This document shows, in pieces, positions 34,308-64,000 of a DNA stretch of 64,000 nucleotides. Numbering within the stretch: position 1 is the first letter of the stretch; every line of letters begins with the position of its first letter. This DNA is from Leucobacter ruminantium (lineage in GTDB: Bacteria; Actinomycetota; Actinomycetes; Actinomycetales; Microbacteriaceae): NCBI RefSeq assembly GCF_017565705.1, contig NZ_JAGDYL010000014.1:1-64000 (forward strand). Reading direction: 5' to 3'. A program made the position numbers and the translations under genes. The notes under the pieces were generated by a model. That model saw nothing but the letters and a program-made list of their open reading frames with translations, searched no databases and had not been told where the DNA came from.

Positions 34308-35240
34308 TCAGGGAGCCCTGCCCTCGTCCCGCTGCGTCGCGATCACCTCCGTGACCGTGCCGGGGTGGAGCCTCGGGTCTCCGGGCTGCACCGGCACCGT
34401 GGCCGTCGAGGTGCCCGCGCGCGCCTTCGCCCTCGGGCTGCGGCTCAGGCGCTTCTCCAGCCACCTCGCGAGCCCCGAGAGGATCAGGCACATCACGATG
34501 TAGATGCCGCCGATGACGAACGCCGACTGCAGCAGGGGGCGCCCGAACTGCACGTTGCTCGAGAGCTGCTTCGCGAGATAGAGCAGTTCGGGGTAGGTGA
34601 TGATGAAACCGAGCGCGGTGTCCTTCATCGTCACGACCAGCTGCGATACGATCACCGGCAGCATCGCGCGCACTGCCTGGGGCAGCAGCACGAGACGCAT
34701 CACGCCGCTCTTGCGCAGGCCGATCGCGTAGCCGGCCTCCTTCTGTCCCCGCGGCAGCGACTCGATGCCCGCACGCAGGGCCTCGGCGAGCACCGAGCCG
34801 TTGTAGACGACGAGCGCGATGACCACGGCCCAGTAGGGCTCCATCTTCACGCCGACGGAGGGCAGGCCGTAGTAGAGCAGCATCATCATGACCAGCACGG
34901 GCACCGCGCGGAATACCTCGGTGACCGCGGTGAACGGCGCGCGCACCCAGGCATGGTCGGAGAGCCTGCCGATCGCGAGCACGAAGCCGAGCGCCACGCT
35001 CAGCACCGCCGCGAGGCCGAAGGCCGCGAGGGTCTTGCCGAGCGCGCGGAGGATCTGCTCCCAGATGGCCGTGTAGGTGAAGATGCCCCACTTCGTCGCG
35101 GAGAACTGCCCCGAGAGCGCGAAGCGGTAGAGGATGAAGGCGACGATCGCTCCTACGCCGACCACCGTGATCACCGCGATCACGCGGTTGCGGAGGATGG
35201 CGCGCGGGCCGGGTACGTCATACAGGACCGAGGTGCTCAT
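34308..35240 (-). CDS. gluD: Glutamate-type ABC transporter permease GluD
   Basis: A 310-residue inner-membrane permease of the polar amino acid (HisMQ) family. The EAA loop that docks to the ATPase is YAIGLRKSGVMRLVLLPQAVRAMLP. It is longer than its partner because of an N-terminal helix region and a Pro/Thr-rich C-terminal tail of 40 residues. The ATG at 35240 overlaps the gluC stop (ATGA), so the two permeases are co-translated, consistent with a heterodimeric channel. It is the last gene of gluA-gluB-gluC-gluD, in the same order as the Corynebacterium glutamate importer, which is the basis for the symbol. Confidence 0.85.
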   Translation of the reverse strand: MSTSVLYDVPGPRAILRNRVIAVITVVGVGAIVAFILYRFALSGQFSATKWGIFTYTAIWEQILRALGKTLAAFGLAAVLSVALGFVLAIGRLSDHAWVRAPFTAVTEVFRAVPVLVMMMLLYYGLPSVGVKMEPYWAVVIALVVYNGSVLAEALRAGIESLPRGQKEAGYAIGLRKSGVMRLVLLPQAVRAMLPVIVSQLVVTMKDTALGFIITYPELLYLAKQLSSNVQFGRPLLQSAFVIGGIYIVMCLILSGLARWLEKRLSRSPRAKARAGTSTATVPVQPGDPRLHPGTVTEVIATQRDEGRAP

Positions 35241-35893
35241 CGCGCGATCCTCCACTTCTTCTCGAGGCGGTTCTGGGCGAAACTCAGGATCATCACCAGC
35301 ACCACGAAGACGAGCGCGACCCAGAGCAGCACCTCCATGGGGCTGCCCGGGCGGCCCGCGGCGTCGTTGATCGTGGCGCGCAGCGCACCGAGCTCGGCCA
35401 CCGAGAATCCTGCGGCGACCGTCGTGTTCTTGAGCAGTGCAATGAACACGCTCATCATGGGCGGCACGACCGAGCGGAAGGCCTGCGGCAGCACGACGAG
35501 CGACATGACCTGCCCGAACGGCAGCCCGATCGCGCGTGCCGCCTCGGCCTGCCCGACCGGCACCGTGTTGATGCCGGCCCTCAGCACCTCGGCCACGTAG
35601 GTCGCCGTGTAGATGCCGATCGCGAGGATGCCGAGCACGAGCGTGCTCATCTTGGGCAGTCCCAGCGCGGGGTAGCCGAGCACGAAGAAGAAGAAGACGA
35701 GCGTCAGCGGCGTATTGCGGACGAGGGTCACGTAGAGCGTGCCCACGCCCCGCGCGATCGGCACCGGCGAGACGCGCATGGCCCCGACGATGATGCCCAG
35801 CCCGAGGGCGAGCAGGCCACCGCCGAAGAACACGAGCAGCGTGTTCTTGATCGCGGTTCCCCAGAGGTCGAGGTTCCCGAAGATGACGTCCAT
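35237..35893 (-). CDS. gluC: Glutamate-type ABC transporter permease GluC
   Basis: A 218-residue permease of the polar amino acid ABC family. The HisMQ signature VRNTPLTLVFFFFVLGYPALGL and the ATPase-docking EAA loop AARAIGLPFGQVMSLVVLPQAFRSVVPP are clear. It pairs with GluD. A strong AAGGAGG ribosome site precedes the ATG at 35893. Between gluB and gluC lies a 14-bp-stem, four-base-loop hairpin (35915-35946) that should lower transcription into the permeases relative to the binding protein, a common arrangement for ABC importers. Substrate specificity rests on gene order and the binding protein. Confidence 0.87.
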   Translation of the reverse strand: MDVIFGNLDLWGTAIKNTLLVFFGGGLLALGLGIIVGAMRVSPVPIARGVGTLYVTLVRNTPLTLVFFFFVLGYPALGLPKMSTLVLGILAIGIYTATYVAEVLRAGINTVPVGQAEAARAIGLPFGQVMSLVVLPQAFRSVVPPMMSVFIALLKNTTVAAGFSVAELGALRATINDAAGRPGSPMEVLLWVALVFVVLVMILSFAQNRLEKKWRIAR

Positions 35894-35951: not shown

Positions 35952-36860
35952 TCAGTAGGCGTCCACCTCGGGCTGCTCGACCTTGATGCCCGAGTCGCCG
36001 AGGTTCCGCTCGAAGACCGCATCCCAGACGTCGCCGCCGTCGGTGAAGAGGTCGTTGATGTGCGCGCGCAGCACGTCGTCGCCCTTGGGCAGGCCCACGC
36101 CGTACTTCTCCTCGGTGAGCAGCGGGCCGCTCGTCACCATGAGGTTGTCGGGATCCTGCGCGGCGTAGCCGATGAGGATGGCCTGGTCGGTCGTCACGGC
36201 ATCCACCTGCCCGTTCAGCAGGCTCTCGACGCACGCCGAGTAAAGGTCGAACTCCTGGGTCTTGATACCGGGGAAGTTCTCCTTGATGTTCTGAATGGGC
36301 GTCGACCCCGTCGCCGAGCACACCGTCTTGCCGTCGAGCTCCTCGAGCGACTGGTAGTCGGTGTCGCCCTGCTTCACGAGCAGACCCTGGCCGGTGATGA
36401 AGTAGGGACCGGCGAAGTCGATGTCGGCCTTGCGCTTGTCGTTGATCGAGTAGGTGCCGACGTAGTAGTCGATGTCGCCGTTCACGATCGCCTGCTCGCG
36501 GTTGGCGGAGGCGATCGCCTTGTACTCGATCTGATCCTCGTCGAAGCCGAGCGAGGCGGCGATCCAGCGGGCGATGTCGACGTCGAAGCCGCTGCGCTCG
36601 CCCGTGACATTGTCGAGGTATCCGAGGTTCGGCTGATCCTCCTTGACGCCGATCACGACCTTGCCGCGCTCCTCCATCTTGTCGAAGGTGGGGCTGCCCT
36701 CGAGCGTGAAGCCCTCGGCGACCTCCCACGGCGTCTCACTGCTCGCCGCGTCGTCTCCCGAGCCGCCCGGGGCCGCCGGGCTGCCGCTGTTGCAGCCCGC
36801 GAGCGTCAGCGTCGCGGCGGCGAGGAGGCCGACTGCGGCGAGTGCTTTCTTGAATCGCAT
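35952..36860 (-). CDS. gluB: Glutamate-type ABC transporter substrate-binding lipoprotein GluB
   Basis: A 302-residue lipoprotein, lipidated at C23 (lipobox LAGC), with the family 3 solute-binding fold. GKVVIGVKEDQPNLGYLDNVTGERSGFDVDIARWIAA is typical of glutamate-binding proteins and carries the Arg/Asp region that grips the amino acid. TYSINDKRKADIDFAGPYF and VDAVTTDQAILIGYA are further family blocks. It captures the ligand at the outer face and delivers it to GluCD. The ATG at 36860 has GAAAGGA upstream. It follows gluA with a 57-base gap that holds a short GGGATCGC hairpin. Confidence 0.9.
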   Translation of the reverse strand: MRFKKALAAVGLLAAATLTLAGCNSGSPAAPGGSGDDAASSETPWEVAEGFTLEGSPTFDKMEERGKVVIGVKEDQPNLGYLDNVTGERSGFDVDIARWIAASLGFDEDQIEYKAIASANREQAIVNGDIDYYVGTYSINDKRKADIDFAGPYFITGQGLLVKQGDTDYQSLEELDGKTVCSATGSTPIQNIKENFPGIKTQEFDLYSACVESLLNGQVDAVTTDQAILIGYAAQDPDNLMVTSGPLLTEEKYGVGLPKGDDVLRAHINDLFTDGGDVWDAVFERNLGDSGIKVEQPEVDAY

Positions 36861-36917: not shown

Positions 36918-37667
36918 TCAGTTGGTGATGAGCTTGGAGAGGAAGTCTTTGGCGCGGCTGCTCTTCGGGTTGGTGAAGAACTCCTCGGGCGTCGCCTGCT
37001 CGACGATCTGCCCGTCCGCCATGAAGACCACGCGGTCGGCGGCCTTGCGCGCGAAGCCCATCTCGTGGGTGACGACGATCATCGTCATGCCCTCCTTGGC
37101 GAGGCCGACCATGACGTCGAGCACCTCGTTGATCATCTCGGGGTCGAGCGCGCTGGTGGGCTCGTCGAAGAGCATGACCTTGGGGTGCATGGCGAGGGAT
37201 CGTGCGATCGCGACGCGCTGCTGCTGGCCGCCGGAGAGCTGGGCCGGAAGCTTCGAAGCCTGCTTCTCCACGCCGACGCGTGTGAGCAGCTCCATCGCCT
37301 CCCGCTCGGCGTCGGCCTTCTTCATGCCGCGCACCTTGATCGGGCCGAGTGTGACGTTCTCGAGGATCGTGAGGTGCGCGAAGAGGTTGAACGACTGGAA
37401 GACCATGCCGACCTCGGCGCGCAGCTTCGCAAGCTCCCTGCCCTCCGCCGGAAGCTCCCTGCCGTCGATGCGGATCGAGCCGCTGGTGATGGTCTCGAGG
37501 CGATTGATCGAGCGGCACAGGGTCGACTTGCCCGAGCCGGACGGGCCGATGATCACGACGACCTCGCCCCGTTCGATCGTGAGATCGATGTCGGTCAGCG
37601 CCTGGAAGTCGCCGTAGTGCTTCTGCACGTTCTCCACGACGACCAGCGGTTCGCTCGCACTCATCAT
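36918..37667 (-). CDS. gluA: Glutamate-type ABC transporter ATP-binding protein GluA
   Basis: A 249-residue ABC ATPase of the polar amino acid class. It has Walker [10 protein letters not shown], the Q-loop region [14 protein letters not shown], signature [15 protein letters not shown], Walker [14 protein letters not shown] and the switch His in VVTHEMGF. It powers import through GluCD. The start is MM at 37667/37664 after AAAGGTGG. It is the first gene of gluABCD. The promoter region upstream has ATGACG-17-TAGCTT and four CTTGAG repeats, so control by an OmpR-type regulator is likely, and a regulator of that class is encoded 2.6 kb upstream. Confidence 0.92.
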
Positions 37668-37794
37668 GTCCACCTTTGGATCCTGACCTGCCGCGCGGGA
37701 CGCTTCAGGTGTGTTGCCGGGCTGCGCCGATTCCGATGAGCATCCGCCCCGTCTCCGGGTGCGGCGTCTGCTCCTCGTCGAACCGATCAGCCCC

Positions 37795-37823
37795 AAGCTA
37801 GGGGAGGGATCCCTCGCCGTCAT
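37795..37823 (-). promoter_or_regulatory. Predicted gluABCD promoter
   Basis: On the minus strand ATGACG (37818-37823) and TAGCTT (37795-37800) are separated by 17 bases, leaving a leader of about 120 bases to gluA. The -35 is poor, as expected of an activator-dependent promoter. The spacer contains GAGGGATCCCTC. Confidence 0.5.
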
Positions 37824-37827
37824 GGGC

Positions 37828-37867
37828 CTTGAGGTTTTCTTGAGTGTGTGCTTGAGCGTTTCTTGAG
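37828..37867. promoter_or_regulatory. Four CTTGAG direct repeats, OmpR-type binding site candidate
   Basis: CTTGAG occurs at 37828, 37839, 37851 and 37862, that is at steps of 11, 12 and 11 bases, on one face of the helix. The array ends four bases upstream of the predicted -35 of gluABCD. Tandem hexamers at about 11-base spacing are how PhoB/OmpR-family dimers bind. Confidence 0.65.
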
Positions 37868-37930
37868 CTTCGCCCGTTCGAGCGCTCGCGACGCCCTATC
37901 GCGCGTCCCGCGGGCGCGCTGAGGCGCCCC

Positions 37931-38887
37931 TCATCGGCGTGTGTCGACGTAGTAGTCGGCTGCGCCGGGGTGCAGCGCCATGGGCTCCGTGAAGATCGCC
38001 TGTCGCCTGTCGAGGAAGGCCGCAGCGGGCACCGAGCGCGCGATCGACGCCCGCGATGCGAAGAGCACCCCCGCGACGTCGTAGACGAGATCGTGCGGGG
38101 CGCTCTCCGAGGTGACGAGGTAGTTCGGCACGGTCATCGTCTCGCTCGAGGTCTCGATGCCGTAGGCGCCGATCGGGAAGTCGGCGATCCGGTAGACCCC
38201 GGCATGCCCCGCGTTGACGGCCTCGACGGTGTCGGCCCCAATCGACAGCATCCGCACCGGCATGGCCTCCGAGAGCCGTTCGATGCCCGGGGTCGGCAGA
38301 CCCCCGACCCAGAAGAACGCGTCGATCTCCCCCGCCTCCATCGCCCGGATCGAGTCGTCGAGACCGAGGGCCGGGTTGTCCAAGGCGTCGACCGGTACGC
38401 CCGAGGAGTCGAGCACGCGCTCGGCGATGACGGCGACCCCCGAGTTCAAGGCTCCGAGCGATACCCGACGGCCACGCAGCTCGGCGATCCCGCGTATCTC
38501 GGAGTCGGCGGGCACCACGATGTGCACGTACTCGTCGTAGACGCGCGCGACCGCCCGCACCGGGAGCGGCTCGTCGAAGGCGCCGACGCCCGCGATCGCA
38601 TCCGCCGCGGTGTCGCCCTGGGCGAATCCGAGCAGGGCGTCGCCCGAGCCGACGCGCAGCAGGTTGTCGACCGAGCCGCGAGTCTCGGACACCGAGATAT
38701 CGAGGCCCAGGCCGCGGTGCAGCTCCTCGGCGAAGCGCTCCCCGTAGGCGTAGTAGACCCCCGCCGTGCCGCCTCCCGCTATCCGGTACGACTTCCCATC
38801 GGCGTACTGCGCGCCGCCGCACCCCGCCAGCGCGGCCAGGACGACCGTCGCGGCGAGCGCCGCGACCATCCGCACGAGCCTCCGCAT
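37931..38887 (-). CDS. TAXI-family solute-binding lipoprotein
   Basis: A 318-residue lipoprotein (signal peptide, lipidated C23 in LAGC) of the TAXI family, the binding proteins of one TRAP transporter class. Family stretches are YRIAGGGTAGVYYAYGERFA, SVDNLLRVGSGDALLGFAQGD, LRGRRVSLGALNSGVAVIAE and DAFFWVGGLPTPGIERL. Structures of relatives hold glutamate-like ligands. No TRAP membrane subunit is near. Instead its start overlaps the stop of a histidine kinase (TGATG at 38885-38889), with a response regulator before that, so it is more likely a sensor subunit that presents its ligand to the kinase. The neighbouring gluABCD operon points to an acidic amino acid. The family call is firm; the role is inference. 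Confidence 0.85.
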   Translation of the reverse strand: MRRLVRMVAALAATVVLAALAGCGGAQYADGKSYRIAGGGTAGVYYAYGERFAEELHRGLGLDISVSETRGSVDNLLRVGSGDALLGFAQGDTAADAIAGVGAFDEPLPVRAVARVYDEYVHIVVPADSEIRGIAELRGRRVSLGALNSGVAVIAERVLDSSGVPVDALDNPALGLDDSIRAMEAGEIDAFFWVGGLPTPGIERLSEAMPVRMLSIGADTVEAVNAGHAGVYRIADFPIGAYGIETSSETMTVPNYLVTSESAPHDLVYDVAGVLFASRASIARSVPAAAFLDRRQAIFTEPMALHPGAADYYVDTRR

Positions 38888-40260
38888 CACACCTCCCCCG
38901 CCGGAAGATGCAGCGCGACCCTGAGCCCGCCGCCACCGGGGGCCGAGACCTCGATCCGGCCTCCCAGCGCGTGCATCAGATCCGTCGCGATGGCGAGCCC
39001 CAGCCCGGACCCCGGAACGTTCTGATCGCGCGCGCTGCGCCAGAAGCGGCGGGTCGCCCGCTCCAGCTCCTCCGGTTCGAGGCCGCGGCCGCGATCCCTC
39101 ACCGCGATCTCGCACTCCTCGCCCGGCACCGCGACCGTCACATCGACCTCCGTGCCGCGCGGCGCGAACTTCAGCGCGTTGTCGATCACCGCGTCGAAGG
39201 CGCTCTCGACCGCCGTGCGGTCGGTGAGCGCCGGTGCGGCGGCCGGAGCGCTCACGGCGATCCGTACCCCGCGCTCGCGGGCGACGTGGCGCCACGCGGC
39301 GACCCTGGCCGTGACGACGTCGACCAGGTCCACGACCGCGAATACGGAGTCCGCCCGACCCGCGCGCGCCATGCCGAGCAGCGTGTCGAGGATGCGAGAC
39401 ATGCGCCTGCCCTCCTCGCGGGTCTTCTCGACGTCGTCGTCCCAGCTCTCGTCGAGCCCCGTCGCCAGGTACTCGACCCGCATGAGCAGCGCGCCCAGTG
39501 GGTTGCGCAGCTCGTGGGAGGCGTTCATCGCGAACTCCTGCTGCCGCGAGATGACACGCTCGATCTCCTCGGCCATCTGATTGAAGATCCGCGTCATGCT
39601 GCGGGTCTCCGGAGGCCCCGTGTCGTCGGAGATCCTGGCGTTCATCTCGCCGTGCTCGATCGCGGCCATGGCTTCGTCGAGCCGATGCATCGGCTGCAGC
39701 ACCCAGCTGGCGAGCCTGAACACCGCGAGCACCAGCAGCGCCACGATCGCGATGCACACGGCGATGAGCGCCAGCCAGTGGGTCAGGATCTCGCTGCGCG
39801 GCTGCTCCGCGCTCGCGGAGATCACCACCGCGCCGATCACGATGCCGTCGTCGAACACCGGCTCGACCACCGTCGTCTCGCCGAGCGACCACGGCAGCAC
39901 CGTCTGCACCGGCTCGCTGCGGCGGCCCGAGAGCGCCAGGCCGAGCTGCGCGGTCGCCTCCTCCCCCAGCTCGCCCGGCTCCAGACCGCCCGACGCCCAC
40001 AGCGCACCCGAGCGGTCGAACACGGCGACCTCGGCGTCGTAGAGCTCGCTGTAGCGTCTGAGCTCGCCCTCGATCACATCGGGTGCGCCGGCGCGGAGCG
40101 CCTGCCTGGCGCCGGTCAGGAAGTAGCTGAGATCGCCGAGCTGCTGGTTCGAGACCTCCTGCTGGATGCTGCGCGCGACGCTCCACGCGTAGGCGCCGGC
40201 GAGCGCCAGGAGGATCACGGTCATCGGCACGAGGAAGACGATGATCAGCCGCTTGCGCAC
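38887..40260 (-). CDS. Sensor histidine kinase
   Basis: A 457-residue membrane kinase. Helix 1 (about 6-28) and helix 2 (about 163-185) enclose an exported sensing domain of about 130 residues with a PAS/Cache-like look (VAVFDRSGALWAS). A HAMP linker follows, then the HisKA dimer with phospho-acceptor H249 in NASHELRNPLGAL, and the ATPase domain with an N-box (FDAVIDNALKFAP), a G1 box (DRGRGLEPEEL) and a G2 box (GSGLGLAI). GTG 40260 starts one base after the regulator stop, and its own stop overlaps the TAXI gene, so the three are one operon. Its stimulus is probably delivered by the TAXI lipoprotein. Confidence 0.92.
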   Translation of the reverse strand: MRKRLIIVFLVPMTVILLALAGAYAWSVARSIQQEVSNQQLGDLSYFLTGARQALRAGAPDVIEGELRRYSELYDAEVAVFDRSGALWASGGLEPGELGEEATAQLGLALSGRRSEPVQTVLPWSLGETTVVEPVFDDGIVIGAVVISASAEQPRSEILTHWLALIAVCIAIVALLVLAVFRLASWVLQPMHRLDEAMAAIEHGEMNARISDDTGPPETRSMTRIFNQMAEEIERVISRQQEFAMNASHELRNPLGALLMRVEYLATGLDESWDDDVEKTREEGRRMSRILDTLLGMARAGRADSVFAVVDLVDVVTARVAAWRHVARERGVRIAVSAPAAAPALTDRTAVESAFDAVIDNALKFAPRGTEVDVTVAVPGEECEIAVRDRGRGLEPEELERATRRFWRSARDQNVPGSGLGLAIATDLMHALGGRIEVSAPGGGGLRVALHLPAGEV

Positions 40261-40261
40261 C

Positions 40262-40933
40262 TCACACCCCGGTCAATCGGTAGCCCACGCCGCGCACCGT
40301 CGCGATGAGGGACGGCCTGTCGAGCTTGCGCCTGATCGAGCCGACGTGCACCTCGAGGGATCTGCTGAAGCCGTTCCAGTCGGTGCCCCAGACCTCGCGG
40401 ATGATGCGATCCCTCGGCACCACTACGCCCGGGTACCGCGCGAGCACCGCGACGATGTCGAACTCCTTCGGTGTGAGATCGACCGGGGTGTCGCCCGCGA
40501 GCACGAGGCGATTCACGAAGTCGAAGTAGATGCCGTCGATGTCGATGCCCGACGTCTCCTCGGAGTCCACAGGCAGGGCGTGCGTTCGACGCGTCACCGC
40601 CTCGATCCGCGCGATGAGCTCGCGCACATCGTAGGGCTTCACCACGAAGTCGTCGGCCCCCGCGTGCAGGCCCCTGATCCGCTCCTCCACGTGGCTGCGG
40701 GCCGTCGCCACGATGATCGGCACGCCCGAGAAGCCGCGGATGCGCCGGCACACGTCGAGGCCGTCCATGTCCGGCAGGCCGAGATCGAGCAGCACGGCCT
40801 CGGTGTCGGGACCGACGGCCTCGAGCGCGGAAGCGCCGTCCGCCGCGCGGACCGTCGTGTAGCCGGCCTGACGCAGATAGGCGCCGAGCGCGTCGGCGAC
40901 GCGCTCGTCATCTTCCACGATCAGGATCTTCAT
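40262..40933 (-). CDS. OmpR-family response regulator
   Basis: A 223-residue regulator. The receiver domain has the acidic pair D8/D9, phospho-acceptor D50 in LLDLGLPDMDG, and K99. The C-terminal winged helix (LTPKEFDIVAVLARYPGVVV, then VHVGSIRRKLDRPSLIATVRGVGYRL) binds tandem direct repeats in this family. It is the first gene of the regulator-kinase-TAXI operon; the ATG at 40933 has GGAGACC upstream. The only matching tandem repeat array I see nearby is the CTTGAG set before gluABCD. That makes glutamate import its likely target. The octamer GAGGGATC appears twice, once in each orientation. Confidence 0.93.
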   Translation of the reverse strand: MKILIVEDDERVADALGAYLRQAGYTTVRAADGASALEAVGPDTEAVLLDLGLPDMDGLDVCRRIRGFSGVPIIVATARSHVEERIRGLHAGADDFVVKPYDVRELIARIEAVTRRTHALPVDSEETSGIDIDGIYFDFVNRLVLAGDTPVDLTPKEFDIVAVLARYPGVVVPRDRIIREVWGTDWNGFSRSLEVHVGSIRRKLDRPSLIATVRGVGYRLTGV

Positions 40934-41035
40934 CTCGGTCTCCAGCGGTTCCCGGGCACGCCGGGTGTTGCCCGACACCCCCAGATTAGCCTCCGCCGGC
41001 CCGGCGCCTCTCCCCCGCGCCTCTTGCGCCGACTC

Positions 41036-41100
41036 CGACGCTTTCAGCGAGACCGACGGTTCCCGTGGCTCTGAAACAGTCGGTCTCGCTGAAAGCGTCG
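41036..41100. repeat. Perfect 22-bp-arm inverted repeat
   Basis: Bases 41036-41057 are the exact reverse complement of 41079-41100, with a 21-base loop. It lies between the end of the APC permease gene (41153) and the start of the regulator operon (40933), both leftward, so it probably terminates the permease transcript. Confidence 0.85.
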
Positions 41101-41152
41101 ATCTCGTCGGGGTGGGCCGGGGCGTCCCGCGGACGGAGAGCTCGGGATCCGG

Positions 41153-42565
41153 TTACTCGTACATCGAGATGTTGACGGGGCCCGTGAGGTCGGGCGCGGG
41201 CGCCCGGAAGCCGCGCGTCTTCACCACGAGGAAGAGCAGACCGGCGACCAGCCAGATCCCTCCGATGACCTTCGAGAGCGGATCGAGGCTGAGCCACAGC
41301 CACACGTTGATCGCCACGCCGACCGCGGGCACGGCGACGAAGCCGAGCCAGAGCCCGAGGCTGCGGCGCTTCAGGAAGCGGAAGAAGACGAAGATGACCG
41401 ACAGGTTCACGAAGGTGAAGGCGAGGAACGCGCCGAAGTTCGCCATCGCGGTCGCCTGATCGAGATCGACGAAGGTCGCCGTCAGCGCGACGAGTGCGAT
41501 GAGCAGCACGTTCGCCACGGGAACGCCGGTGCGCGGGTTCACCTTCCCGAACAGGCGCTTCGGCAGTGCCCCGTCGCGACCCATCGCGTAGAGCAGCCGT
41601 GCGGCGCTCATCTGCTGCGTGATGCCGCAGGCCAGCACGGCCATCATGTAGCCGCCGACGAATACGGCCTGGAAGGCGGCGCCGCCGATGTACTTCGCGA
41701 TCTCGGGCGAGGCGCCCACGACGTCCTCGAGCAGCGACACATCGGGGAACAGCACCTGCATCACGTACGAGACCGAGAGGAAGAACGCGCCAGCGACGAG
41801 GACGATGATGAAGATCGCGCGCGGGATGTCGCGGGTCGGCCGCTCGGCCTCCTCCGCGAGGGTCGACACCGCGTCGAAACCGAGGAAGGAGAGCGCGAGC
41901 AGTGCCGCGCCGGCCGTGATCGAGACCAGCTGGATGTCCTCCGAGAAGAACGGGCGCACGCTGAACTCCGCGCCGTTCGCGCCGTTCGAGATGTTGACGA
42001 CCGTGAGCACCACGAACACGACGGCGACGATCAGCTGGATCACGACGAAGGCCATGTTGAGGTTCGCCGAGAGCTTCACCCCGACGAGGTTGAGCACCGT
42101 GCAGATCGCGACGGTGAGCGCCACCCAGATCCAGAACGGCACATCGGGGAAGATCGCGCCCATGTAGATGCCCGAGAGGATCGCGTTGACCATCGGCAGG
42201 AGGATGTAGTCGAGCGTCGCCGCCCAGCCCACGAGGAAGCCGAGGTGCGCGTTGATCGCCTCCTTCGCATAGGTGTAGGCGGAGCCCGCGATCGGGAAGA
42301 AGCGCACCATGCGCGAATAGCTGAAGGCGGTGAACAGCACGGCGACCATCACGACGAGGTACGCGAGCGGCACGTGGCCGTCGGTCTCGTCGGAGACGAT
42401 GCCGAAGAGGTCGAACACCGCGACCGGGGCCATGTAGGCGAGGCCGATGAAGACCAGGTGGCGCAGCTTCAGCGTGCGCTTCAACTGTCCGGGCTCGCCG
42501 GTGATGGCGTGCGCGATCTGGTCATCACCCGCGGCGACTCCGGAGTGGGAGGGGAGAGTGGACAT
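41153..42565 (-). CDS. APC family amino acid/amine permease
   Basis: A 470-residue permease with about twelve helices. The APC signature is in KLRHLVFIGLAYMAPVAVFDLFGIV and, in helix 6, ALLALSFLGFDAVSTLAEEAERPTRDIPRAI. It imports an amino acid, amine or related compound with protons. Next to it, upstream in transcription order, is an amidohydrolase on the same strand, so the pair may import and hydrolyse one N-acyl or formyl compound. I use ATG 42565, which has AAGGA six bases before it; a GTG four codons earlier is possible. A 17-bp-arm palindrome separates it from the amidohydrolase gene. Confidence 0.88.
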   Translation of the reverse strand: MSTLPSHSGVAAGDDQIAHAITGEPGQLKRTLKLRHLVFIGLAYMAPVAVFDLFGIVSDETDGHVPLAYLVVMVAVLFTAFSYSRMVRFFPIAGSAYTYAKEAINAHLGFLVGWAATLDYILLPMVNAILSGIYMGAIFPDVPFWIWVALTVAICTVLNLVGVKLSANLNMAFVVIQLIVAVVFVVLTVVNISNGANGAEFSVRPFFSEDIQLVSITAGAALLALSFLGFDAVSTLAEEAERPTRDIPRAIFIIVLVAGAFFLSVSYVMQVLFPDVSLLEDVVGASPEIAKYIGGAAFQAVFVGGYMMAVLACGITQQMSAARLLYAMGRDGALPKRLFGKVNPRTGVPVANVLLIALVALTATFVDLDQATAMANFGAFLAFTFVNLSVIFVFFRFLKRRSLGLWLGFVAVPAVGVAINVWLWLSLDPLSKVIGGIWLVAGLLFLVVKTRGFRAPAPDLTGPVNISMYE

Positions 42566-62379: not shown

Positions 62380-64000
62380 TCAGGCGCGCGGCTTCTCGAC
62401 CATCTCAGTGGTCTCGATCTCGTCGCCGACCTGGATGTCGTTGAACTTGCCGAGGCCGATACCGCACTCGAAGTCGGTCTTGACCTCGGTCACGTCGTCC
62501 TTGAAGCGGCGCAGCGACTCGATGGCCAGGCCATCGGCGAGCACGACGCCCTCGCGGATCACGCGCGCCTTCGCGTTGCGCGTGATGGTGCCGCTGCGAA
62601 CGATGACACCGGCGATGTTGCCGAACTTCGAGGAGCGGAACACCTCGCGGATCTCGGCCACACCCGACTGGACCTCCTCGTACTCGGGCTTGAGCATGCC
62701 CTTGAGCGAGTTCTCGATGTCGTCGAGCGCGTTGTAGATGACGTTGTAGAAGCGGATGTCGATGCCCTCGCGCGCGGCGCGCTCGCGGGCCTTGACATCG
62801 GGGCGCACGTTGAAGCCGATGACGATCGCGTTGTCGATCGTGGCGAGATCCACGTCCGACTCGGTGATCGCGCCGACGCCGCGGTGCAGGATGCGCAGCT
62901 GCACCGAGTCGTCGACCTCGATCTTCATGAGCGATTCCTCGAGCGCCTCGACGGCACCCGACACGTCGCCCTTGATGATGAGGTTGAGCGACTCGACCTT
63001 GCCGTCCTCCAGCGCCTTCGTGAACTCCTCGAGGCTGATGCGCTTGCGGGCCTTCGCGAGCATCGCGTTGCGCTCGGCGGCCTCGCGCTTCTCCGCGATC
63101 TGGCGGGCCGTGCGGTCCTCGGAGGTGACGATGAAGTTGTCACCCGCGCGCGGCACGCTCGAGAGACCCTGCACCTGCACCGGACGCGAGGGCAGCGCCT
63201 CGAGCACGGCCTCGCCGTTCTCGTCGTGCATCGCGCGCACGCGGCCGTAGGCCGTGCCCGCGACGATGGCGTCTCCGACCCGGAGCGTGCCCGACTGGAT
63301 GAGCACGGTCGCGACCGCGCCGCGGCCCTTGTCGAGCTTCGCCTCGATGGCGACGCCGCGGGCGTCCTTGTCGGGGTTCGCCCGCAGGTCGAGACCCGCG
63401 TCGGCCGTGAGGAGCACCGCGTCGAGCAGCTCGGTGATACCGATGTTGTTCTTCGCCGAGACGTCGACGAACATCGTGTCGCCGCCCCAATCCTCGGAGA
63501 CGAGACCGAACTCGGTGAGCTGCTGGCGCACCTTGTCGGGGCTCGCGCCCTCCTTGTCGATCTTGTTGACCGCGACCACGACCGGCACACCGGCCGACTG
63601 AGCGTGGTTCAGCGCCTCGATCGTCTGGGGCATGATTCCGTCGTCGGCCGCGACCACGAGGATCGCGATATCGGTGACCTGCGCACCACGGGCGCGCATG
63701 GCGGTGAACGCCTCGTGACCCGGGGTATCGATGAAGGTCAGCGCGCGATCGACGCCCTCGTGCTGCGTGTGCACCTGGTAGGCGCCGATGTGCTGCGTGA
63801 TGCCGCCGGCCTCGCCGCCGCCCACGTCGGCCTTGCGGATGGCGTCGAGCAGACGGGTCTTGCCGTGATCGACGTGACCCATGACGGTGACCACCGGGGG
63901 CCGGGGCTGGAGGACGTCGTCCCCCTCCTCCTCGAGCTCCGCATCGATGTCGATGTCGAAGCCCTCGAGCAGCTCGCGGTCCTCGTCCTCGGGAGAGACG
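62380..64000 (-). CDS. infB: Translation initiation factor IF-2, C-terminal part (continues beyond window)
   Basis: About 540 codons of infB are inside the window; the frame stays open to base 64000, so the N terminus is missing. IF-2 is the GTPase that places initiator tRNA on the ribosome. The G-domain motifs are [16 protein letters not shown] (G1), [12 protein letters not shown] (G2), DTPGHEAF (G3) and NKID (G4); domains 2-4 follow, with [25 protein letters not shown] and [27 protein letters not shown] at the end. An acidic segment just before the G domain ([14 protein letters not shown]) is typical of actinobacteria. The next genes, normally rbfA and truB, are displaced by four genes on the other strand. 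Confidence 0.97.

Follow-up and report, generated by a model that had tools for sequence, protein, structure and literature searches.

What is the role of a TAXI solute-binding lipoprotein whose gene overlaps that of a sensor kinase, in a genome where no TAXI-type permease is found? The question is raised by a locus of Leucobacter ruminantium, located in positions 1 to 64,000 of contig NZ_JAGDYL010000014.1 (this whole stretch of 64,000 nucleotides is called the window, and coordinates refer to it), where the genes of an OmpR-type regulator, a histidine kinase and a TAXI protein precede the amino acid importer genes gluABCD. Comparison with other genomes suggests that the unit is probably a three-component nutrient sensor, in which ligand-bound TAXI would signal via the kinase and the regulator to switch on gluABCD. 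The initial annotation of the window, made from its letters only, had proposed such a TAXI sensor as a new variant of two-component system. The sensor role is favoured by repeats that track the unit, by the lack of a TAXI-type permease or GltS and by the separate branch formed by kinase-linked TAXI proteins, but the regulator, kinase and gluABCD belong to an already established system, so that this part of the proposal is not new.

A TAXI gene between a two-component system and gluABCD

The locus comprises seven minus-strand genes, all co-directional. The first encodes an OmpR-type, GluR-like response regulator of 223 residues (40262..40933; Pfam Response_reg 6.5e-26 and Trans_reg_C 3.4e-24). 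One base separates its stop from the gene of a GluK-like sensor histidine kinase of 457 residues with HAMP, HisKA and HATPase_c domains (38887..40260), whose own stop overlaps by one base the gene of the TAXI lipoprotein (37931..38887), the proposed dedicated sensor subunit. After a gap of 263 bases follow gluA, encoding the ABC ATPase of an amino acid importer (36918..37667; ABC_tran 2e-39; the nearest NCBIfam model is GlnQ, with a score under its cut-off), gluB for the importer's own solute-binding protein (35952..36860; SBP_bac_3 1.2e-20), and the permease genes gluC (35237..35893; BPD_transp_1 3.6e-15) and gluD (34308..35240; BPD_transp_1 1.2e-21). The overlap and the one-base spacing agree with the initial annotation, from which the common direction of the unit and gluABCD was absent. 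An OmpR-type regulator and a HAMP kinase adjoining gluABCD form the layout of the GluR-GluK system, and the one-base spacing, the overlap and the conserved linkage are the gene coupling of binding-protein-coupled two-component systems.

The TAXI protein clears the curated cut-offs of its family (PF16868, 173.6 bits against 27, E-value 9.2e-51; TIGR02122, 242.3 against 84.35, 5.5e-72). It carries the lipoprotein motif LAGC at residues 20-23, its 318 residues are covered by one TAXI match, and its closest named relatives are from Leucobacter (up to 67%).

Kinase-linked TAXI proteins form a branch of their own

To compare kinase-linked and permease-linked proteins, TAXIs were labelled by their gene neighbours (179, reduced to 174 after removal of near-identical ones), and 139 of these 174 rows, with every second gluABCD-linked row omitted, were placed in a quick unrooted tree without bootstrap. 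One branch, with a Shimodaira-Hasegawa-like approximate likelihood ratio (SH-aLRT) value of 97, gathers 90 of the 139 rows, namely 85 kinase-linked TAXIs and 5 others, and none labelled as adjacent to a TRAP permease. A second group holds 34 rows (30 permease-adjacent and 4 other) and a third holds 13, i.e. 12 permease-adjacent rows and one tandem copy labelled sensor by rule; two further rows with neither label complete the tree. The sensor label changes twice on this tree when 11 unlabelled rows are left aside and seven times if these count against it. In the 17 loci carrying both kinds of TAXI, the kinase-linked copy belongs to the sensor branch, whereas the permease-linked one does not. 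At L097, L176, L188 and L192, three of which are named Micromonospora, a TRAP-TAXI pair is accompanied by a further TAXI at a distance of about 4 kb; these extra TAXIs form their own branch, with no kinase match in the stretch.

No transport partner is found for the TAXI protein

The initial annotation had noted the absence of a TRAP membrane subunit at the locus, and this extends to the TAXI-type TRAP permease in the whole genome (3.3 Mb, 99.4% complete). Only one PF16868 protein above cut-off and two DctM permeases are encoded, both of the latter adjoining their own DctP-like binding protein and a separate DctQ, as named from sequence; a transport role via TRAP was rejected for the window's TAXI on this ground. 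Indeed, the fused TAXI-type permease used as a query retrieved from this genome only the DctM of a DctP-like system, at 39 bits, and nothing from 12 other genomes with a kinase-linked TAXI. In the Streptomyces-like genus g80, a TAXI-type permease was found in 1 of 61 genomes (E 1e-15). GltS (PF03616) was found in none of 31 genomes, including that of the window, while the controls Escherichia coli and Corynebacterium glutamicum do match, and a role via GltS was likewise rejected. The window's TAXI is thus accompanied neither by the fused DctQM partner of TAXI-TRAP systems nor by the GltS partner of TAXI-GltS systems, and a TRAP permease elsewhere that would need this TAXI, which the initial annotation had named as an argument against its reading, did not come to light.

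Conserved CTCAAG repeats precede gluA

Four direct repeats CTCAAG, read towards gluA on the minus strand, occupy 37828..37867 with steps of 11, 12 and 11 bases (CTTGAG on the forward strand, starting at 37828, 37839, 37851 and 37862). Four bases (GCCC) downstream of the last repeat lies a promoter-like element, ATGACG, 17 bases, TAGCTT (37795..37823, minus strand), so that the early description of four repeats ending four bases from a weak -35-like element is borne out by the sequence; a sigma-70 promoter scanner returned no sites at its own threshold. By counts alone the repeat is unremarkable, because it is not enriched and reversed controls are equally common or commoner: CTTGAG occurs 21 times in the window for 19.65 expected, pairs spaced by 4-7 bases occur four times in the genome, three of them at this array (six for the reversed pattern), and CTCAAG-N5-CTCAAG occurs exactly twice, both times at this array (also two for the reversed control). 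A second CTTGAG pair at 62689-62706 was taken as chance, since it lies inside a putative coding sequence, which we take to be infB-like. It is the four-copy array, together with its conserved position in relatives, that exceeds chance in these comparisons.

Of the 77 loci with the unit, 63 carry CTCA-N7-CTCA in the 450 bases preceding gluA, against 1.1% of shuffles, and all 63 have a copy in the direction of gluA. The remaining 14, which we take to be Pseudonocardia and related genera of the Pseudonocardiaceae, carry a variant with CCTA as first half, a pattern set after viewing the sequences. Loss of the repeats in relatives that keep the operon, a further counter-argument foreseen at the outset, did not appear. 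For comparison, a close gluA was found in 75 of 120 genomes of the window's family and 30 of these 75 loci were fetched: with 1.5-kb flanks, the repeat is absent before gluA in all 28 loci without an adjoining unit (one of these genomes, G575, has a TAXI elsewhere) and present in both loci with an adjoining TAXI. In the five family genomes with a gluABCD-linked unit, the sole exact genome matches of CTCAAG-N5-CTCAAG precede gluA. Four exact copies are found only in the window and in Leucobacter chromiireducens, within the 330 bases searched, and many Leucobacter and Microbacterium relatives have two. A [TG]GAC element with TAnnnT at promoter distance follows the repeat in 42 of the 77 loci against 0.9% of random positions, this pattern too being chosen post hoc.

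Collectively, the comparison gives good support to the CTCAAG repeats as the predicted operator of the regulator. CTCA-N7-CTCA also precedes the regulator gene in 31 of 121 loci, which, except for L150, were read as a divergent region shared with gluA; since the window has no repeat before its regulator gene, there is no sign of self-regulation.

The three-gene unit recurs in actinobacteria

At E 0.001, TAXI was matched in 44 of the 149 genomes from the order and in 173 of the 393 from the class. A search for co-occurrence of the three-gene unit without TRAP permeases had been suggested in the initial annotation, and such units do recur in many actinobacteria. We classified by hand 80 named loci found by TAXI alignment; since the search favoured window-like TAXIs with one motif and contigs end near some loci, its proportions do not apply to TAXIs in general. 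Regulator, kinase, TAXI and gluABCD run in one direction in 24 of the 80 (Leucobacter, Microbacterium and two actinobacterial metagenome-assembled genomes). In 21 others, from Streptomyces, Pseudonocardia, Kineosporia and others, gluABCD diverges from the regulator and kinase and TAXI faces the kinase, sometimes with about 2 kb between them. Three loci combine kinase, TAXI and TAXI-TRAP, as in the annotated order of NZ_CP108555.1 (TAXI, sensor kinase, regulator, TRAP fused permease, TAXI); 15 have the kinase without such transporters in the stretch, ten only a TRAP permease and TAXI, three the Micromonospora TRAP-TAXI pair with an extra TAXI, and four none of these. At loci L100, L102, L103, L105, L106, L108, L170-L173 and L175 (from family f33, Isoptericola and Krasilnikoviella), regulator-kinase-TAXI units have no close gluABCD or TAXI-type permease match in the stretch, and in some 2 kb separate kinase and TAXI.

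The genus g80 was taken as Streptomyces because its layout and boxes match those of named Streptomyces loci. Of its 19 genomes with a fetched TAXI region, 18 have the three genes of the unit in the same neighbourhood as at least gluA, and in the 19th TAXI is on a 12-kb contig without a kinase match. In the window's family, TAXI is detected in 6 of 120 genomes (E 1e-20) and the kinase in 17 of the same 120 (E 1e-40). Each of the five best-scoring kinases is followed by a TAXI no more than about 110 bases downstream; in two of these genomes (G521 and G597) the TAXIs are only distant (32-34%) and gluA is located elsewhere. The remaining 12 genomes with a kinase lack a TAXI at E 1e-20, and G575 carries a TAXI but no kinase of this kind. 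In G576 (contig C1, 1592242-1593172), the TAXI of a kinase-TAXI-gluA locus was matched as two overlapping pieces in different frames.

The ligand pocket resembles that of glutamate-binding TAXIs

The structure model of the window's TAXI has a predicted local distance difference test (pLDDT) score of 94.4. Its best fold matches are the L-glutamate-bound TAXI structures 1us4 and 8u79 of Thermus thermophilus, with template modelling (TM) scores of 0.84-0.90; VcGluP, likewise glutamate-bound, scores 0.82-0.87, and identity to the VcGluP and T. thermophilus structures is 26-28%. The VcGluP report names 13 residues as glutamate contacts. By alignment, eight are identical in the window's TAXI (V44, Y45, Y46, S75=S72, Q93=Q90, E125=E119, G156=G150 and G203=G196) and five are changed (S40 to G, H123 to Y, D157 to V, Y200 to W and M201 to V). 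In VcGluP, Q93A and Y45A are reported as the most damaging substitutions, with affinity losses of 990-fold and 213-fold, compared with 14-fold for S75A and only 1.3-fold for E125A. Y45, S72, Q90 and E119 are all kept in 28 of 28 sensors of the Microbacteriaceae group. For these pocket counts, L116_10581, the tandem copy next to a permease-linked TAXI, was reclassified as transport instead of sensor, and four rows marked 'ot' were also treated as transport.

Position 119, equivalent to E125 of VcGluP, is acidic in 75 of 75 gluABCD-linked sensors. Among 17 TAXI-TRAP-linked sensors, it is acidic in three, whose adjoining transport TAXIs also have E, and N or S in 14, whose transport TAXIs have N. 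The Fisher value is 5e-14, with kinship ignored and few independent changes behind it. The pocket class of the sensor at this position thus appears to follow the neighbouring transporter. Elsewhere in the protein, R212, R279, R295 and I298 are frequent in kinase-linked and rare in transport TAXIs (R212, 99% against 15%), and these residues are candidate kinase contacts.

The extracellular part of the kinase matches no Pfam domain

No Pfam match was obtained for the extracellular part of the kinase (approximately residues 30-150), and in six kinase members no match below E 0.03 reached this part, with chance-level overlaps only. The kinase model (pLDDT 83.9, predicted TM score 0.43) gave recognised fold matches to the catalytic part or to whole kinases, which are uninformative on the sensor domain.

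In two loci, kinase and TAXI share a frame. At L055 (8251-10704) they form one open frame of 817 residues, whose TAXI part keeps a signal-like stretch ending in LAAC; at L156 (6510-8903, Leucobacter coleopterorum) the kinase end is unlike that of relatives and the frame continues into TAXI, through a sequencing error or in reality. Such fusions were dropped as proof of partnership, since the common frame of L156 may stem from an altered kinase C-terminus.

Sequence upstream of the unit

Upstream of the regulator, and co-directional with it, is an APC-type amino acid permease gene (41153-42562), the same neighbour as in three Leucobacter loci (L146, L147 and L148). Between the two genes, an inverted repeat with 22-base arms (41036-41100) may be a terminator that lacks a T tract. 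The folding energy of 41020-41125 is -59.8 kcal/mol (z -6.2), and a 16-base piece of the repeat arm occurs once in the window.

Comparison with known systems

In Streptomyces coelicolor, GluR-GluK (SCO5778/5779) controls gluABCD (SCO5774-5777), GluR binding upstream of gluA with glutamate as the signal, according to two reviews (PMC9739842, PMC10345050); GluK is also described in a review as affecting antibiotic production. Both loci have an OmpR-type regulator and a transmembrane kinase beside gluABCD, though the units are divergent in S. coelicolor and co-directional here, and the available text of the same reviews (PMC9739842, PMC10345050) makes no mention of a TAXI component. The regulator, kinase, operator and gluABCD of the window look like another example of this system. 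Synteny of named Streptomyces loci would place a TAXI gene near gluK in S. coelicolor as well. What would be new is TAXI, acting as a dedicated sensor that has a branch to itself.

In citrate sensing by Bordetella, the binding protein BctC is likewise extracytoplasmic and is needed for induction via the kinase of BctDE, as a review describes (PMC5812351); it is, however, a TctC homologue that also serves its transporter, whereas here a TAXI stands without a permease found. VcGluP and the T. thermophilus TAXI share with the window's protein the glutamate TAXI fold and key pocket residues, but these serve TRAP permeases and the window genome has no TAXI-type permease. BP0403 of the TAXI-GltS system of Bordetella pertussis is also a TAXI lipoprotein without nearby TRAP permease genes, and is reported to bind L-glutamate; it differs as a three-domain dimer coupled to GltS from the one-match protein of the window. 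The words 'two-component' and 'kinase' do not occur in the papers on VcGluP and TAXI-GltS, and no TAXI protein paired with a two-component system was found in the literature searched, most subscription journals lying outside it. AioX-AioS and ArrX-ArrS are pairs in which a binding protein serves a sensor kinase, with arsenic ligands and in another sequence family. The fold search with the TAXI model also retrieved AioX and ArrX, at TM-scores of only 0.52-0.63.

A model of TAXI-dependent sensing and its alternatives

We infer the ligand of TAXI, its contact with the kinase and the sign of control. The lipoprotein, outside the membrane, would bind glutamate or a close acidic amino acid in its cleft and close; closed TAXI would then dock on the GluK-like kinase at its short extracellular domain and alter how it phosphorylates the GluR-like regulator. 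The phosphorylated regulator is predicted to bind the CTCAAG repeats by the -35 of gluA, in the manner of PhoB/OmpR-family activators, and would thereby raise gluABCD expression. Import would be carried out by GluABCD with its own GluB, TAXI delivering nothing to the permease.

Several observations weigh against this model, the weakest points being the reported direct glutamate binding by GluK, the loss of the pocket glutamine outside the window's group and an unspecific distance signal. S. coelicolor GluK was reported to bind glutamate itself, by biolayer interferometry, as told in a review, and because of this the sensor claim is reduced to TAXI being possibly a third component that went unrecognised. 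Only 39 of 120 sensors retain the key glutamine, Q90, and all 22 Streptomyces-group sensors have A or T there, so that the ligand of the latter may differ. The argument from position 119 rests on a residue of small effect in VcGluP, and the loci are related. Pairwise distances of TAXI and of the kinase extracellular domain are correlated (partial r 0.43, 111 loci, with L055 and L156 excluded from these comparisons), but over 71 loci the value is 0.38 for TAXI and 0.28-0.33 for the controls GluB, GluC and GluD (-0.04 for GluA); since these three controls score nearly as high, the signal is unspecific and was dropped from the support. In several g80 loci, a distance of 0.3-5.7 kb separates TAXI and kinase. 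One exact CTCAAG-N5-CTCAAG occurs in 6 of 19 other genomes searched. Finally, CTCA-N7-CTCA precedes none of 42 TAXI-type TRAP permeases, so that the operator, as far as this repeat pattern goes, is not shared by the TAXI-TRAP version.

The distance between TAXI and kinase, the missing glutamine and the reported behaviour of GluK would fit a kinase that senses glutamate alone, with TAXI as an accessory that concentrates the ligand locally, makes the kinase more stable or adjusts affinity. This is the foremost alternative, though an unlikely one: TAXI is kept beside the kinase across many families and in its own branch, and the extracellular part of the kinase has no ligand-binding domain known to Pfam. 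The reverse order is less likely still, TAXI acting as a brake whose ligand-free form holds the kinase in one state until it is freed by ligand binding or by transport. The sequence itself does not determine the sign, and a binding protein can keep a kinase in either state; however, the promoter-like element that directly follows the repeat in 42 of 77 loci is as expected for activation by the regulator, even if the sign between TAXI and kinase stays unfixed by it. That TAXI feeds an unlinked permease or the GluCD permease, in the way that TAXI proteins are known to serve TRAP permeases and, in Bordetella, GltS, is most improbable given the missing partners, the importer's own GluB and the second TAXI, from outside the sensor branch, that adjoins the permease in 17 kinase-linked-TAXI loci near TAXI-TRAP.

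Implications for actinobacterial TAXI proteins

On a broader reading, a distinct actinobacterial TAXI branch would have left transport to work solely as a ligand-binding subunit for one family of kinases. The three-gene sensor would be set before two unrelated importer classes, gluABCD and TAXI-TRAP with a second TAXI, its pocket following the cargo, and GluR-GluK of Streptomyces would then be a three-component system with a sensor that had been overlooked; on this broader picture we are evenly divided. The NCBI model names these proteins TRAP transporter solute-binding subunits, and in an annotated Streptomyces record the kinase-linked and permease-linked TAXI copies both carry that name. If the sensory branch is real, the name is misleading for many actinobacterial genes. 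The TAXI finding bears on how GluK perceives glutamate, and the paired sensor and transport TAXIs of one locus would offer a natural experiment on the passage from permease feeding to signalling.

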